Of a stretch of 64,000 nt of DNA, positions 8,110-60,205 are shown in pieces. The translations under genes were made by a program, and so were the position numbers. The first letter of the stretch is position 1, and each line of letters begins with the position of its first letter. The DNA lies in the NCBI GenBank assembly GCA_009781675.1, contig WQVG01000002.1:1-64000 (forward strand), written 5' to 3'. Under the pieces are notes generated by a model. It saw nothing but the letters and a program-made list of their open reading frames with translations. It was not told the origin of the DNA and ran no database searches. The stretch is from Candidatus Bathycorpusculum acetigenes. GTDB taxonomy: Archaea; Thermoproteota; Bathyarchaeia; Bathyarchaeales; Bathycorpusculaceae.

Positions 8110-8803
8110 TTTGTGAGTTCACCTCATTTTTTGTGGTTGTGAGAGGGATTTTTAGTACCCCTAATTTTTGCAGAATGCTACCTTTATATTTTGATAAGAA
8201 GCTAAAGAGCAAAACAGCAAGAAGTCCCTCAGCTATGGCTAGTGGGATTTGTGTGATAGCATATATGCTAAAGAAGGTAACAAAGGAAGCAAAGACGCTA
8301 CCATCGGTTGGGAATGCAAGACCGAGTTGGACAGCTGTAGTGACATAGGTCATCAAGTCGGCAACTGTAACTGCAACAAAAACACCTATTGACGGGTTAA
8401 GCCGAGTTTTTTTAAACACCCACCATATGGCAAAGCCTATTGCGGGCCCAACAATACCCATGGAGAAAATGTTAGCGCCAAGGGTTGTTATACCGCCGTG
8501 AGCCAGTAATAAGGCTTGAAATGTCAGAACTATCACTGAAATAGCACTTGTTATTGCCGGCCCGAAAAGAATGGCAGAAAACCCAGTGCCTGTTGGGTGT
8601 GAGCTGCTTCCGGTGACTGAGGGAAGCTTGAGGGCAGAGATTACAAAGACAAATGCCCCAACTAGCGCCAAAAGCGGTTTGATTTCAGGCATTTTTTTTG
8701 TTAACTTGGCAACCTTATAGACGCCGTAGATCACAATAGGCAGAGATATTGCCCACCATATTTGCCACCAGGGAGATGGTAGAAAACCTTCCATTATGTG
8801 CAT
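8099..8803 (-). CDS. cbiM: ECF transporter substrate-capture component CbiM (cobalt-type)
   Basis: A 234-residue membrane protein that binds the metal ion. In the CbiM/NikM family the N-terminal amine, His2 and nearby residues are the metal ligands, so the start must be the ATG at 8803 giving Met-His-Ile-Met-Glu-Gly-Phe; a 13-codon upstream extension to 8842 would bury this site. GAGAGGA sits 9-10 bases before the chosen ATG. Six to seven hydrophobic segments follow, with the family's conserved His-Pro-Thr-Gly turn (SSHPTGTGFSA) near residue 65. First gene of the ECF operon and divergent from a winged-helix regulator. Co2+ is favoured because a CbiN is present, although Ni2+ cannot be excluded. 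Confidence 0.92.
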   Translation of the reverse strand: MHIMEGFLPSPWWQIWWAISLPIVIYGVYKVAKLTKKMPEIKPLLALVGAFVFVISALKLPSVTGSSSHPTGTGFSAILFGPAITSAISVIVLTFQALLLAHGGITTLGANIFSMGIVGPAIGFAIWWVFKKTRLNPSIGVFVAVTVADLMTYVTTAVQLGLAFPTDGSVFASFVTFFSIYAITQIPLAIAEGLLAVLLFSFLSKYKGSILQKLGVLKIPLTTTKNEVNSQNAV

Positions 8804-54311: not shown

Positions 54312-55148
54312 TCACAGAGTAGTTTTTAGGATTTTTATGAGTTCTTCTTTGCCTTCTTCAAGTGTGAGGGGGACTTTTTTGATTAAGCCTTGGTTTTTAA
54401 GTTCGGTGAATAGGTTTACGATGGTCGGCGGCTCTAAACCCGACTGCTCTAGCAGGTCTTTATTCTGTAGTACTTCACTTGTTTTACCTTCGCCAAGTTT
54501 TAAGCCATGACTGATTACAACTATGCGGTCAGCCAACTCGGGGATGGCTTCAGCATCGTGTGTAGAGACAATAATCGTTGTGCCTGCTCGGCTGAGTTCG
54601 TTTAGGGTATCGATTAGGTTACGGCGTGAAACCAGATCAAGGTTTGCGGTTGGTTCATCAAGGATTAAGAGTTCGGGCTTTAGGACCAAAGCAGTTGCCA
54701 GAGATACCTTCTTTTTTTCACCAAAACTCAACCGGTGCGGTGGTCGGTTCTTTAGGTGTGTAATACCCATCTTTTCTAGTATTTGTGCACTTTGGATTTT
54801 GATATCGGTATCGGGTAGTTTGAGGTTTTTAGGTCCGTATTCGACGTCTTCGATTACGCTTGGGGTGAAGAGTTGGTCGTCGGGGTCTTGGAAGACGATA
54901 CCTATGCGACTGCGTAATCTCTGGAAATTTTTTGAATTTGTTTTTTCGCCAAAAACTCTGATATCCCCTGAAGTTGGTATCAGAAGACCGGCTATTAGTA
55001 GAATCAGGGTGGATTTACCTGAACCGTTTGGACCAAGCAACGCCACTCTTTCACCCTGTGCGACCTCAAAAGTCAGGCCTTTTAGTGCGGCAATTCCTGC
55101 AGGATAATTAAATTTGACATCATGAATGGAAATGATGGAGTCGACCAT
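54312..55148 (-). CDS. nikO: ECF transporter ATPase (nickel-type, NikO/CbiO)
   Basis: A 278-residue ABC ATPase: Walker A GPNGSGKST, Q-loop FQDPDDQLF, signature LSFGEKKKV (LSFGE replaces LSGGQ), Walker B LLILDEPT and VSTHDAEA. The LSFGE-type signature is common in ECF ATPases. It is the last gene of an M-N-Q-O order and would drive Ni2+ uptake for the adjacent lar genes. The start at 55148 is chosen for GTGAG just upstream and the usual length; the frame extends to 55187 over cbiQ. Confidence 0.9.
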   Translation of the reverse strand: MVDSIISIHDVKFNYPAGIAALKGLTFEVAQGERVALLGPNGSGKSTLILLIAGLLIPTSGDIRVFGEKTNSKNFQRLRSRIGIVFQDPDDQLFTPSVIEDVEYGPKNLKLPDTDIKIQSAQILEKMGITHLKNRPPHRLSFGEKKKVSLATALVLKPELLILDEPTANLDLVSRRNLIDTLNELSRAGTTIIVSTHDAEAIPELADRIVVISHGLKLGEGKTSEVLQNKDLLEQSGLEPPTIVNLFTELKNQGLIKKVPLTLEEGKEELIKILKTTL

Positions 55149-55158
55149 TATGGGAATC

Positions 55159-55971
55159 TCACAGCAGTGCAAGATATGTAAATGCAATTATTATTGATAC
55201 CGTAAACACGACATCGTATACATGGAGCGTTTGTATTTGGGGTTTGTTGGTTTTGCTGATTTCAAACCCTCGGGCTTTCATGGCTAAGTAAACCCGCTCG
55301 GATCGCTCATAGGTGCGGATAAAGAGGGATGACAGAATGGCGCCTAAGTCTTTTAGGGATTGGAGGTTTAGGGTTCGTTTGTTTATGTATGTTCGAGCCT
55401 CTTTGGCAATTAAGATGCTCTGTGCTTCATGGATGGAGACAAAAAAGTACCGGTAGGTTAAGCTGAAGAGTTGAATGATTAGGGGTGGAACGTGAATGGC
55501 AGAGAGAATTTTTAGGGTTTTATCAAATCCTGTTGAGAGTATTAAAAGACTAAGTGAAGCCACACAGAACCAAACCCGTAGGGTAAATATCAAAAACTGT
55601 GTTACCCCCGGAGCTGTTATTGCCAAGGTTACGTTGCCGATGTTTACGGTCCATAGGGGATTGCCGGTAGTTAAGAACAGGGTTGGTAGAGAAATTAAGG
55701 CCATAAACAAGGGAATAAACAGAGTGCGAGTGAAGAGCTGTTTTAGGGGGATGTGGGAGGCTAGGGCAAAAATTACGGGAATAGTGCAGATGGCCAGCAA
55801 ATATGAAAGTTTACTGAGAAACAGAGCAGATATGATCATGGAGGCTATGGCAACTAACTTTGCTATGGGGTTTATGGACTGCATGAAGCCTTTTTTACCG
55901 CTTAAGTCTTCAATGTAGACTAGCGTTTCAGCACCTTCTAGGAGATCTCGTAATGATTGGGGAACTTTCAT
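55159..55971 (-). CDS. nikQ: ECF transporter transmembrane component (nickel-type, NikQ/CbiQ)
   Basis: A 270-residue membrane protein with five to six hydrophobic segments and the coupling motif MKARGF near residue 240. It links the ATPase to the M component. It overlaps the upstream small N component by 4 bases (ATGA) and is followed 10 bases later by the ATPase gene. Confidence 0.9.
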   Translation of the reverse strand: MKVPQSLRDLLEGAETLVYIEDLSGKKGFMQSINPIAKLVAIASMIISALFLSKLSYLLAICTIPVIFALASHIPLKQLFTRTLFIPLFMALISLPTLFLTTGNPLWTVNIGNVTLAITAPGVTQFLIFTLRVWFCVASLSLLILSTGFDKTLKILSAIHVPPLIIQLFSLTYRYFFVSIHEAQSILIAKEARTYINKRTLNLQSLKDLGAILSSLFIRTYERSERVYLAMKARGFEISKTNKPQIQTLHVYDVVFTVSIIIAFTYLALL

Positions 55972-56267
55972 CTACCGTTCTTCCTTTTGCTTAGCAATTT
56001 AGCAACCCCAAAGGCTACCACAAACAACAGAAGCACAGAGACCACACCGATTAATAGGGCTCCCCACTGGTTATCTAAGCCTATGAGGTTGTAGTCAGGG
56101 AAGGGGGGTTCATAGATCGGTTGTGCCTCAAGTCCCAGTTCTTCGGCTGTTAAGTCAAGGGTTTCTAGCGCATAGGAAAAGTAGAAAACTCCCAGAGCAA
56201 CAAAGAGAAAGGCAATTGCTAAACCAGCTATGATTGTTTTTTGGTTTGATTTTTTATGCTTTGGCAT
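55968..56267 (-). CDS. nikN: ECF small component (NikN/PDGLE-like)
   Basis: A 99-residue protein with two membrane helices (about 12-33 and 67-90) and an outer loop with TLDLTAEELGLEAQPIYEPPFPDYNLIGL. The loop ending PFPDY is like PDGLE-domain and NikN subunits, with DLTAEELG in place of PDGLE. It would assist the M subunit in Ni2+ capture. It overlaps the M gene by 14 bases and NikQ by 4. Confidence 0.8.
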   Translation of the reverse strand: MPKHKKSNQKTIIAGLAIAFLFVALGVFYFSYALETLDLTAEELGLEAQPIYEPPFPDYNLIGLDNQWGALLIGVVSVLLLFVVAFGVAKLLSKRKNGR

Positions 56268-56961
56268 TTGTGTTTTCCGGGTTTTGGGGTTTATTTTGGA
56301 ACAGAGATAATTTACCCAATATTGGGCTTTTTTCTAGCACATCTGGACGCAGTTTTAGAAGAGACCCTATTAGGATCACTGTAACGATACCTTCGGCAAC
56401 TCCAATTATGGAATGGTTTAGGGCCATAGCAGGCACTGCAACACTAAGACCATACCAGGGTGATAATGGAGATAATCCAACTGCTGTTCCTGCGGCTATG
56501 GCAGCCAACAGGTCGCCAAAGAACGCAGAAATAAAAATTGTACCATACAAACCGATGCCTATTTTGGGTTTAAACAGCTTATTTAGGGCTATAAAGATTA
56601 GACAGGGGATAAATACACCAATTACACCTATGTTTAAAGTGTTGACGCCAAGCACTATGAGTCCGCCGTCACCAAACAGAAGGGCCTGTAAAACCAAGAT
56701 TATGGTCATAGAGATTAATCCTGCAAAGGGTCCTAAAATAAGCCCTATGACGGCTCCGCCTATAAGATGTGCAGTGGTTGGGCCCAACAGGGGGAAATTT
56801 ATCATCATGGCCGCAAAGAAGAGTGCGGTGAGCAGACCCATCATCGGAACTTGTTGCTCGGAAAGTCTAACTTTTTTGAAGGAGATTGCCCAGAACACGA
56901 TTGTTATTATGAAAGCAGGGATTGCGATTGTTAGCGAGATTAACCCGTCGGGCAGATGTAT
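56254..56961 (-). CDS. nikM: ECF substrate-capture component NikM/CbiM with apparent AUA start
   Basis: A 235-residue membrane protein. The family requires Met1-His2 at the N-terminus because the amine and His2 bind the metal. Here the frame reads ATA CAT CTG CCC GAC GGG, i.e. (Met/Ile)-His-Leu-Pro-Asp-Gly-Leu-Ile, and GGAGGA lies 8 bases before the ATA. An in-frame TAG sits 15 bases upstream of the ATA, and no ATG, GTG or TTG occurs before position 56898, which would delete the binding site and first helix. So AUA is the likely start, or a base error hides an ATG. Six membrane segments, and the TTAHLIGGA and LNHSIIGVAEG blocks, follow. Nickel is inferred from the neighbouring lar genes. Confidence 0.85.
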   Translation of the reverse strand: MHLPDGLISLTIAIPAFIITIVFWAISFKKVRLSEQQVPMMGLLTALFFAAMMINFPLLGPTTAHLIGGAVIGLILGPFAGLISMTIILVLQALLFGDGGLIVLGVNTLNIGVIGVFIPCLIFIALNKLFKPKIGIGLYGTIFISAFFGDLLAAIAAGTAVGLSPLSPWYGLSVAVPAMALNHSIIGVAEGIVTVILIGSLLKLRPDVLEKSPILGKLSLFQNKPQNPENTNAKA

Positions 56962-56975
56962 ATGTCTAATCCTCC
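56959..56975 (-). promoter_or_regulatory. Shine-Dalgarno plus AUA start of nikM
   Basis: GGAGGA (minus strand, 56975-56970), then eight bases, then ATA (56961-56959). It decides the start: this strong ribosome site has no ATG, GTG or TTG within reach in the nikM frame. Confidence 0.75.
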
Positions 56976-57242
56976 ACTAGTAACACGATTATTAAAAAAG
57001 GTATTACTCAAATATAAGTATTACCAAAAAATAAAACAGTAACAACAAACTAATCATCAACCATACAAAACCAACCAAAACCCCATCTAAAACACAAACA
57101 AACCCTAACCATCAAACAAAACTGCACAAACCTACATCCAAAAACAGTAATTACACGTAATTATACGACAAGTATGATAAACTAAATTATTATTTAACCT
57201 GAATAGCACCATTTTATATTTTGTTTTACAGTTAGAAGCAAC

Positions 57243-58031
57243 CTATTTTCGAAACCTATCCGCTCGGTTTGCAATCAAAGCCGCAACGGCCCCCGCAGCC
57301 ACACCACCATCGATGTTAACCACCGCCAAACCCAACGAACAAGATTGGAGCATCGCCATCAAAGCGCCAACACCCTTCGCGCCAAAACCGTAACTATTAG
57401 AAGTGGGTACCCCAATCACAGGCACATCCACAAGACCCGCCACCACAGAACCCAAAGCACCCTCACGTCCCGCAACAACAACCACCACATCCACATCATA
57501 CTCAATAAACCGCTTTAGGGGTTCAAGCAGACGATGGATACCAGCAACACCAACATCATAGCAAGAAAACACCGAACACCCCATTTCTTCAGCGATAACT
57601 CTAGCCTCTTCTGCGACCGGTATGTCACTAGTTCCAGCTGTCAAAATTCCAACCCGTCCTCTGCCATCACCTGCATCAGAAACCCGCTCTTTAATCACAA
57701 CCATCTTTGCCTGTTCATTAACCAACACCACAAAAGTCTCATCTAAAGCAGTAAGAGACTTAATCGCCTCCAAATGCTCTAAACTACATCGACTCACAAT
57801 AACATTACCCTTATTTGCCAACATCACCCCACAGATTTGCGCCACATCTAAAGGCGTTTTGCCCTCTGCCAAAATAATCTCAGGGACACCTTTACGCAAC
57901 TCGCGCTTACCATCCAGCTTTGCTAAACAGCCCAGCTCATCCACAGCAAACAACTTAAGCATTTTTTCTGCCTCGACAGGCGAAAGTTCTCCGCGAAAAA
58001 CCCTGTCTAGGATTTCTTTTAACGATTGCAT
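57243..58031 (-). CDS. larB: Nickel-pincer cofactor biosynthesis protein LarB
   Basis: A 262-residue protein related to PurE. LarB carboxylates and hydrolyses nicotinate adenine dinucleotide to start the cofactor. N-terminal helix LKEILDRVFRGELSPVEAEKML, and a C-terminal PurE-like fold with GILTAGTSDIPVAEEA, GVAGIHR, VVAGREGALGSVVAGL and IGVPTSNSYG. The start at 58031 gives MQSLKEILD. It is divergent from larC by 81 bases and upstream of the nickel ECF genes by a 280-base A/C-rich gap. Confidence 0.93.
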   Translation of the reverse strand: MQSLKEILDRVFRGELSPVEAEKMLKLFAVDELGCLAKLDGKRELRKGVPEIILAEGKTPLDVAQICGVMLANKGNVIVSRCSLEHLEAIKSLTALDETFVVLVNEQAKMVVIKERVSDAGDGRGRVGILTAGTSDIPVAEEARVIAEEMGCSVFSCYDVGVAGIHRLLEPLKRFIEYDVDVVVVVAGREGALGSVVAGLVDVPVIGVPTSNSYGFGAKGVGALMAMLQSCSLGLAVVNIDGGVAAGAVAALIANRADRFRK

Positions 58032-58112
58032 AGAACAACAAATACCTAAAAAACCACAAATCATATATCTTTTATGCCTGCTTGGTAAACTAGGCTTTTG
58101 GGATCGATCCAG

Positions 58113-59363
58113 ATGAGTGAAAATAGAAAAATTCTCGTTATCGACTCTGCAACATCGGGCATTGCAGGAGACATGCTCTTGGGTGCATTGATAGATTTAG
58201 GTGCCAACACTAAACGGATCATCACTGCGATAAAAACGCTGGAAAACCCCGCATATGGCTACAATCATATCGACATAGCAATCAACGAGGTTATGCGAGG
58301 CCCGTTCCGCGCCACTCAAATCAACGTTACCTCTACAAGCGCAGAAAAACGACAAGGCAAAGAACTCATCGAAATTGTAGAAAAAGCCGCCGCAACCATC
58401 ACCATGTCAACAAAAGCACGAGAATTCGCCTCTAGAGTCATCCGTACCCTCATCAACACAGAAGCAAAACTCCACAAAACCAGCTTTGATAATACCCACC
58501 TCCATGAGATAGCACTTGTGGATACATCCGCAGAAATCTTGGGTTGCGCAACTGCACTCGATGACTTGGCGCTCTTTGAGAGCCAAATCTATGCAACCCC
58601 CATAGCAGTCGGCGGCGGAGTCATAGAGTTTTCACACGGCATTGTTCCGGTTCCTGCACCCGCGGTACTGGCGATTTTACAGGCCAAAAACTTTCCCCTT
58701 CACGGGGGACCCATCGAGCACGAATTAGCCACCCCCACAGGGGTTTCATTACTGGTGAATTTAGCAACTCAACCCACCCGCTTCTACCCTGCGTTGACAC
58801 CGCTAAAAATTGGATATGGCGCCGGCACCAAGGAATACCCCCAGATGCCCACAGTTCTAAGACTCACTCTAGGCATATCCTCCGTCCAAGAGAGAACACA
58901 TAACGAAATTGCGGTTTTAGAAACAAACCTCGACGACATTTCAGGTGAGGTCATAGGCTACACCATAGAACGACTAATAGAAGAAGGCGCCAAAGACGTT
59001 AGCGTAATCCCAACAATAACAAAAAAGAACCGCCCAGGGTACCTAATCAAAATCGTTGCCGAAAAAAAAGACGTTACCCACCTCTCAAATATAACCATAG
59101 CTGAAACCGGCACCTTGGGAGTGAGAATCTACTACTGCCAGCGCCACATAATCAGTCGCGAAGTGCGCATGATGGATTTAACGATTTTAGGCAACAAAGA
59201 AACCATCAAAGTTAAAATCTCCAAAAACGCTCAGGGTGAAATCATACGCATAAAACCCGAATATGAAGACCTCAAACGGCTCGCAGAAAAAACCAAACAA
59301 CCGCTACGGGAACTTTTAGATTTGACAGTTTCCCAAATACAAAATTTCCAAAAGAACCAATAG
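58113..59363 (+). CDS. larC: Nickel-pincer cofactor biosynthesis protein LarC (nickel insertase)
   Basis: A 416-residue protein. LarC inserts nickel into the pincer in a CTP-dependent step. Blocks seen: DSATSGIAGDMLLGALIDLG, HLHEIALVDTSAEILG, the GPIEHELATPTG turn, and ETNLDDISGEVIGY in the C-terminal domain. Some LarC genes need a ribosomal frameshift; here one frame covers the whole protein. The ATG at 58113 is chosen as it gives MSENRKILVIDS; larE follows after 8 bases. Confidence 0.93.
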   Translation: MSENRKILVIDSATSGIAGDMLLGALIDLGANTKRIITAIKTLENPAYGYNHIDIAINEVMRGPFRATQINVTSTSAEKRQGKELIEIVEKAAATITMSTKAREFASRVIRTLINTEAKLHKTSFDNTHLHEIALVDTSAEILGCATALDDLALFESQIYATPIAVGGGVIEFSHGIVPVPAPAVLAILQAKNFPLHGGPIEHELATPTGVSLLVNLATQPTRFYPALTPLKIGYGAGTKEYPQMPTVLRLTLGISSVQERTHNEIAVLETNLDDISGEVIGYTIERLIEEGAKDVSVIPTITKKNRPGYLIKIVAEKKDVTHLSNITIAETGTLGVRIYYCQRHIISREVRMMDLTILGNKETIKVKISKNAQGEIIRIKPEYEDLKRLAEKTKQPLRELLDLTVSQIQNFQKNQ

Positions 59364-59371
59364 GCGATTGT

Positions 59372-60205
59372 ATGGAACAGCCCAATAACAAAAAGTTAGA
59401 GGCACTAAAAAGATACATAGCAGACAAAGGCAGAAACGGTGCAGTCATCGCCTTTTCTGGAGGCGTTGATAGTACAACCCTAGCCGCGCTTGCCCGCCAA
59501 GTTTTAGAAGAAAAAACTGTTGCCGTTATCGCTCAATCCGCCACCTACACAACAGAAGAACTCCAAGACGCAAAAAAATCCGCTCAAGACATTGGCATAC
59601 CACTCCACATCATTCAAACCGATGAACTCAAAAACCAAAACTTTCAAAAAAACCCCCCAAACCGTTGCTACTACTGCAAAAAAGAACTCATTCAAAAACT
59701 TCTCATCTTCGCCCACTCATATGGGTTTAGAGCGGTGTTTGAAGGAACAAACTATAGTGATTTACATGACCACCGACCCGGCTTTCAAGCGGTACAAGAA
59801 ACTCAAGACGTTTATAGTCCATGGGCTACATGCCAGTTCACAAAGACAGAAATCCGCAAAACCGCCAAAGCCTTGGGGCTAAGCATTCATGCCAAGCCTT
59901 CCCGATCATGTCTAGCGACACGGATACCTTTTAATCAGCTAATCACCGTAGAGAAACTCAACCGCATCAATCAAGCAGAACGAGCCATTAGAGCTATAGT
60001 GCCTATACAACAACTTCGGGTCAGAGATCATAACGGCTTAGCACGCATCGAAGTTGACATACAAGAGCGGCATCTATTTTTTGATGTATCCGTGTTAGAT
60101 GAGGTGGCTTTGGTGCTCAAACGACTGGGTTTTTTATATGTTACCCTTGATTTAGAGGGCTATCAAACAGGAAACATGTTAAGAGCACTCGAAACTATAC
60201 CTTGA
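59372..60205 (+). CDS. larE: Nickel-pincer cofactor sulfur transferase LarE, probable [4Fe-4S] type
   Basis: A 277-residue PP-loop ATPase that turns the two carboxylates of the precursor into thiocarboxylates. PP-loop FSGGVDST is at 28-35. Cys180 (RSCLATR) aligns with the sacrificial Cys of the Lactobacillus enzyme, and Cys99 and Cys102 (RCYYCKK) add two more. Three cysteines in these places are the hallmark of LarE proteins that bind a [4Fe-4S] cluster, as in Thermotoga maritima and Methanococcus maripaludis, which work catalytically instead of losing their own sulfur. With larC it forms a plus-strand operon. Confidence 0.93.
   Translation: MEQPNNKKLEALKRYIADKGRNGAVIAFSGGVDSTTLAALARQVLEEKTVAVIAQSATYTTEELQDAKKSAQDIGIPLHIIQTDELKNQNFQKNPPNRCYYCKKELIQKLLIFAHSYGFRAVFEGTNYSDLHDHRPGFQAVQETQDVYSPWATCQFTKTEIRKTAKALGLSIHAKPSRSCLATRIPFNQLITVEKLNRINQAERAIRAIVPIQQLRVRDHNGLARIEVDIQERHLFFDVSVLDEVALVLKRLGFLYVTLDLEGYQTGNMLRALETIP

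Follow-up and report, generated by a model that had tools for sequence, protein, structure and literature searches.

The nickel importer gene nikM of Candidatus Bathycorpusculum acetigenes probably starts at an AUA codon behind a strong Shine-Dalgarno sequence

The stretch of DNA analyzed here (the window; 64,000 nucleotides, contig WQVG01000002.1, positions 1 to 64,000) carries an operon in the order nikM-nikN-cbiQ-cbiO, with nikM as its first gene and with larB, larC, and larE adjoining (Table 1). Profile matches identify S, N, and T components and an ATPase, which together are the gene set of a NikMNQO importer. The nikM product matches PF01891 with 178.3 bits (cutoff 23.1) over positions 1 to 204 of 205 and aligns with the CbiM/NikM2 protein of PDB entry 4m58 from residue 1 of both. 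Within the N-terminal motif Met-His-x-P-[DE]-G, His2 and PDG are encoded, while Met1 is present only if AUA initiates. The window gene thus resembles the NikM/CbiM ECF S components (4m58, 5x3x) in its alignment from residue 1 and in the MHxP[DE]G motif, and differs from them solely in the start codon. Structural work on NikM2 reportedly found Ni(II) held by the N-terminal amine and His2. The window also contains a second CbiM-type gene (approximately 8132-8802, minus strand; MHIMEGFLPSPWW) with an ATG start.

Table 1. Features of the nikM locus, in window coordinates
Feature	Position	Strand	Basis and remarks
nikM, ECF nickel/cobalt S component	56254..56961	-	235 codons plus stop, read from AUA; PF01891 and PDB 4m58 alignment
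AUA start codon of nikM (proposed)	56959..56961	-	Aligned with ATG in 15 relatives, ATA in G020, and CTG in G012
Shine-Dalgarno GGAGGA of nikM	56970..56975	-	SD:anti-SD duplex at -9.3 kcal/mol; ranks joint second in strength among 30 CbiM loci
In-frame TAG, closes nikM frame upstream	56977..56979	-	Sequence
GTG, codon 22, first canonical start downstream of ATA	56896..56898	-	Inside helix 1; too late for Met1-His2 or an entire helix 1
nikN (PDGLE/CbiN-like)	55968..56267	-	ATG start; 14-nt overlap with nikM; PDGLE 25.4 of 27 bits, just under cutoff
cbiQ/nikQ, T component	55159..55971	-	PF02361, TIGR02454 above cutoff
cbiO/nikO, ATPase	54312..55187	-	PF00005; true start may be a few codons further in
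larB, nickel-pincer cofactor synthesis	57243..58064	-	NF033503 above cutoff
larC	58098..59363	+	TIGR00299, NF052512
larE	59372..60205	+	TIGR00268
Operator half-site GTGTTAC, NikR-like (putative)	56980..56986	-	21 nt downstream of other half-site, kept in most relatives
Operator half-site GTAATAC, NikR-like (putative)	57001..57007	-	Conserved in most relatives
Third half-site-like GTAATAC	57018..57024	-	Clade-specific
TATA-like TTATAT	57012..57017	-	Between half-sites; sequence

The initial annotation had proposed that nikM starts at ATA, the only codon that offers Met-His, with the end of GGAGGA 8 nt and an in-frame TAG 15 nt upstream, and all of these coordinates are confirmed on the minus strand, where the frame reads TAG TGG AGG ATT AGA CAT ATA CAT CTG CCC GAC GGG. 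No ATG, GTG, or TTG in the gene yields Met-His; the next canonical codon, which had been placed at 56898, is indeed a GTG. An antisense open frame of 248 codons (56234-56980, plus strand) spans all of nikM, is longer than the sense frame read from a canonical start, and could mislead gene callers.

Orthologous nikM starts were aligned, as had been suggested in the initial annotation, in 17 relatives (15 of the same genus and 2 of the same family), and the orthologs start at exactly the codon occupied by ATA, which supports the AUA start: 15 have ATG at this position, one has ATA (G020), and one has CTG (G012). A longer conserved N terminus with an ATG elsewhere, which would have spoken against AUA, is not what the relatives have, and in many of them an in-frame stop lies a few codons upstream. 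Because the starts align in 17 relatives, the start site is fixed by homology, and this agreement argues that the ATA position is more than a product of chance. In G020 (TAA AAC ATA CAC) and G012 (TAA CCT CTG CAC), an in-frame TAA precedes the start by 1 to 2 codons, and the first 40 codons include no canonical start. In G020, NikM, NikN, and CbiQ are fused in a 600-codon frame read from ATA (L007/L057, G020:C74:5023-6825); the inner start codons are gone, so that ATA would be the sole start codon of the frame. The G012 ortholog (L008, G012:C3:77711, minus strand) has its TAA two codons before CTG and the Shine-Dalgarno (SD) sequence AAAGGAGA.

These comparisons bear on two other accounts of the ATA codon. 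A sequencing or assembly error at 56959, where the true codon would be ATG, involves only a single-base G/A difference in a metagenome-assembled genome (MAG). However, ATA at the same codon of G020, a different species of the same genus in a different assembly (WQSY01000074), together with CTG in G012, makes a base-calling error peculiar to the window MAG unlikely, and SD strength tracks the odd codons (see below); we find such an error hardly credible. Initiation at another codon is very improbable as well. ATT at 56970-56968 (N terminus M-R-H-I-H) is the sole other near-cognate codon in the short frame upstream of ATA, and ATT is known as a rare start, but here it overlaps the SD of the ATA start, is not preceded by an SD itself, and lacks a counterpart in G020, while the relatives use the ATA position. 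GTG at 56898 is canonical, but a protein started there would lack His2 and most of helix 1, both of which are under purifying selection, and neither G020 nor G012 has such a GTG.

In both protein and DNA trees, the window gene groups with the ATG-starting genes of G014 and G028 and not with G020, and a topology that unites the two ATA genes is rejected (AU test, P = 0.009 for DNA and P = 0.031 for protein). Parsimony requires 3 changes, namely two gains of ATA and one gain of CTG. As the ATA genes of the window and of G020 do not form a sister pair, ATA probably arose twice, and the codon of G020 probably represents a separate arrival at the same state. A history in which ATA was ancestral and several lineages later lost it would cost only slightly more in parsimony.

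We measured SD strength as the energy of the SD:anti-SD duplex (in kcal/mol) at 30 CbiM loci. The three genes with odd starts rank high: G020 has -10.5, the window gene has -9.3, and G012 has -8.0 (fifth of 30), with the window gene tied with an ATG gene (G008) whose SD is more distant. In the same clade of 10 species, the eight ATG genes range from -5.6 to -6.4. In a test that uses three odd-start genes and a simple duplex energy, odd starts are significantly associated with a strong SD (5/4060 = 0.0012 by exact rank), also when the window's gene is left out (4/406 = 0.0099). A bacterial lineage provides a third case of ATA with a stronger SD. In Dehalococcoidales CSMAG_1145, an intact CbiM gene (L033, 5508-6143, plus strand) has an ATA start behind GAGGAGGT (-12.6), whereas its same-genus relative L193 has ATG at the same site with GAGGAGAT (-8.3) and a frame broken after approximately 26 codons; given that the search pattern itself demanded GGAG, only the extra SD strength of L033 counts.

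The odd starts could be a property of the organisms or of the gene. As a control, we aligned the starts of 43 families, drawn from approximately 20 genomes (stretches of at most 20 kb that surround nikM, rpoB, and cdhC) and from further stretches of the window's own genome. In these families, 382 starts are ATG, GTG, or TTG, and the CTG of G012 nikM is the only ATA, ATT, ATC, or CTG start without a canonical codon nearby; the remaining odd starts either lie within 1 to 12 codons of a canonical one or belong to the fused gene of G020. The nikM genes of the window and of G020 fell outside this pipeline, the former probably because it lies behind the longer antisense frame and the latter because it was placed in the cbiQ family. 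Odd starts are significantly more frequent in nikM (3/18 versus 0/382, Fisher's test, P = 8e-5; 2/17 without the window's gene, P = 0.0017), and the inclusion of some canonical nikM starts among the 382 matters little. This difference points to a bias toward a family whose N terminus cannot shift, while other genes shift to a start close by. Among the second CbiM-type genes found in the genus and in two members of the family, there are 32 starts: approximately 26 ATG, 5 TTG, and 1 CTG (G015; L176, G015:C1:232650-234150, LHIMEGFL).

Across 257 genomes of the class, the exact motif follows ATG, GTG, or TTG in 54 cases, CTG in 1, and ATA in 4; further ATH matches are due to chance or are explained by an upstream ATG. 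Two of the four ATA cases are CbiM remnants (L120 and L125) in G168 (Chersky_322, of a sister genus), one with TAA at codon 38 and the other truncated, and as pseudogenes they were rejected as AUA-start genes. Two matches (L121 and L122, from G047 and G051) were set aside because of an ATG CAY two codons upstream; their CbiM N terminus, MHIHIPDG, is longer by two residues and has a second His. A scan of 85,000 genomes for GGAG, ATA, and the CbiM motif, with the window's own record left out, returned only two other intact genes. Nearly all remaining ATA matches are chance frames, and a match from Actinomycetes (L050) was not accepted because its frame is broken.

The region upstream of nikM has the layout GTAATAC-N14-GTGTTAC, and the genome of the window organism encodes two NikR_C proteins. 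Given these proteins and the conservation of the half-sites, nikM transcription is probably controlled by nickel. The TATA-like element suggests a 5′ untranslated region of about 25 to 30 nt. We found no mRNA structure that would hide the start, as the fold is no better than that of shuffled sequences (z = 0.4 to 0.6). A special decoding tRNA for AUA was likewise rejected: the tRNA genes found form an ordinary set with three CAU anticodons (one initiator-like and one with an intron) and no UAU. One CAU-anticodon tRNA gene (L155, G000:C66:8528-8632) is split by an intron of approximately 30 nt.

The nikM frame is under purifying selection. Pairwise dN/dS values are 0.067 to 0.099 between the window gene and its relatives, 0.086 to 0.139 for G020, and 0.058 to 0.169 among ATG pairs, with one more pair saturated. 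In codons 2 to 21, which precede any canonical start, changes between the window gene and G020 affect 10.5 of 16 synonymous sites and 4.5 of 44 nonsynonymous sites. This pattern indicates that codons 2 to 21 have been translated for most of their history, although dN/dS does not date the ATA, and the selection seen on these codons could be older than a recent loss of the start. Under such a start-codon loss, ATA would be a first mutation toward inactivation, or an allele carried by a minority and captured in the MAG; full-length NikM would be made in small amounts or not at all, and the operon would be decaying. Both ATA copies of CbiM in G168 are broken, and these dead copies show that ATA can also mark decay; the window organism, moreover, retains the second CbiM with ATG. 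On the other hand, the whole operon is open, the dN/dS of nikM is low, G020 retains its 600-codon frame without inner starts, the SD is stronger instead of decayed, and the operator is retained. We consider start-codon loss unlikely, but it keeps real weight.

Instead, we think it probable that nikM is initiated at AUA by initiator Met-tRNA at reduced efficiency, with compensation by the SD and with the start pinned by Met1-His2. The ordinary initiator tRNA-Met (CAU) would read AUA with the third base mispaired, and the near-perfect GGAGGA at good spacing would keep the 30S subunit at the site and recover part of the loss. Since the metal is held by the Met1 amine and by His2, the start would be unable to slide to a neighboring ATG, GTG, or TTG, and a start-codon mutation would therefore be kept and compensated in the SD. 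Because the SD would make up only part of the AUA loss, importer output would be reduced. The position of the ATA, the conserved frame and start site, the two separate ATA and one CTG, the SD excess, and the purifying selection are observed; from them we infer initiation at AUA, Met as residue 1, the lowered output, and the order of mutations.

Natural AUA starts are known in Staphylococcus aureus, where ribosome profiling and reporters demonstrated them for infC, ccpN, and citZ; the infC, ccpN, and (AUU) cvfC1 sites have an extended, strong SD, and the AUU and AUA sites tested reach approximately 10% of AUG, with ccpN up to 30% (PMC13009471). The lowered NikM expression proposed here would fit this range of approximately 10 to 30% for AUA. 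Common to both systems are the AUA start and the strong SD, but the S. aureus genes are bacterial and subject to IF3 discrimination, and their starts, unlike that of nikM, are not fixed in place by metal-binding residues. Belinky et al. (2017; PMC5622118) found that weaker start codons go with stronger SDs, a similar compensation that concerned GUG and UUG there and AUA and CUG here; of 61,358 ancestral AUG starts, 363 changed to GUG, 113 to UUG, 2 to CUG, and 1 to AUU, with no AUA listed. The GTC start of Streptomyces sigR (PMC5472188) is also a natural non-canonical start that limits output, as we propose for nikM, but it differs in codon, in its bacterial host, and in that IF3-mediated regulation was demonstrated. 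Our search of an open-access library found no archaeal AUA start. While AUA starts with a strong SD are already known from Staphylococcus, an archaeal case pinned by metal ligands would, as far as this search shows, be new.

Sequence data alone can hardly prove that translation begins at AUA, since the start of most proteins can move without harm. The start of NikM/CbiM cannot shift, and the family can therefore be used like a ruler to compare start codons between genomes; in archaea, this comparison reveals candidate starts at AUA and CUG that are separate from each other and compensated by the SD. Gene callers limited to ATG, GTG, and TTG would truncate such genes at a GTG or ATG, and the metal ligands would be lost. 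A tentative and rather unlikely extension is that structurally pinned CbiM/NikM starts in Bathycorpusculaceae change to AUA or CUG time and again and are then maintained through SD compensation, and that AUA acts as a built-in brake that limits nickel uptake at the level of translation, below the control by the NikR-like operator, possibly because archaeal start selection is lax here. We suggest that nikM could serve to test how start codons are discriminated where bacterial IF3 is absent.
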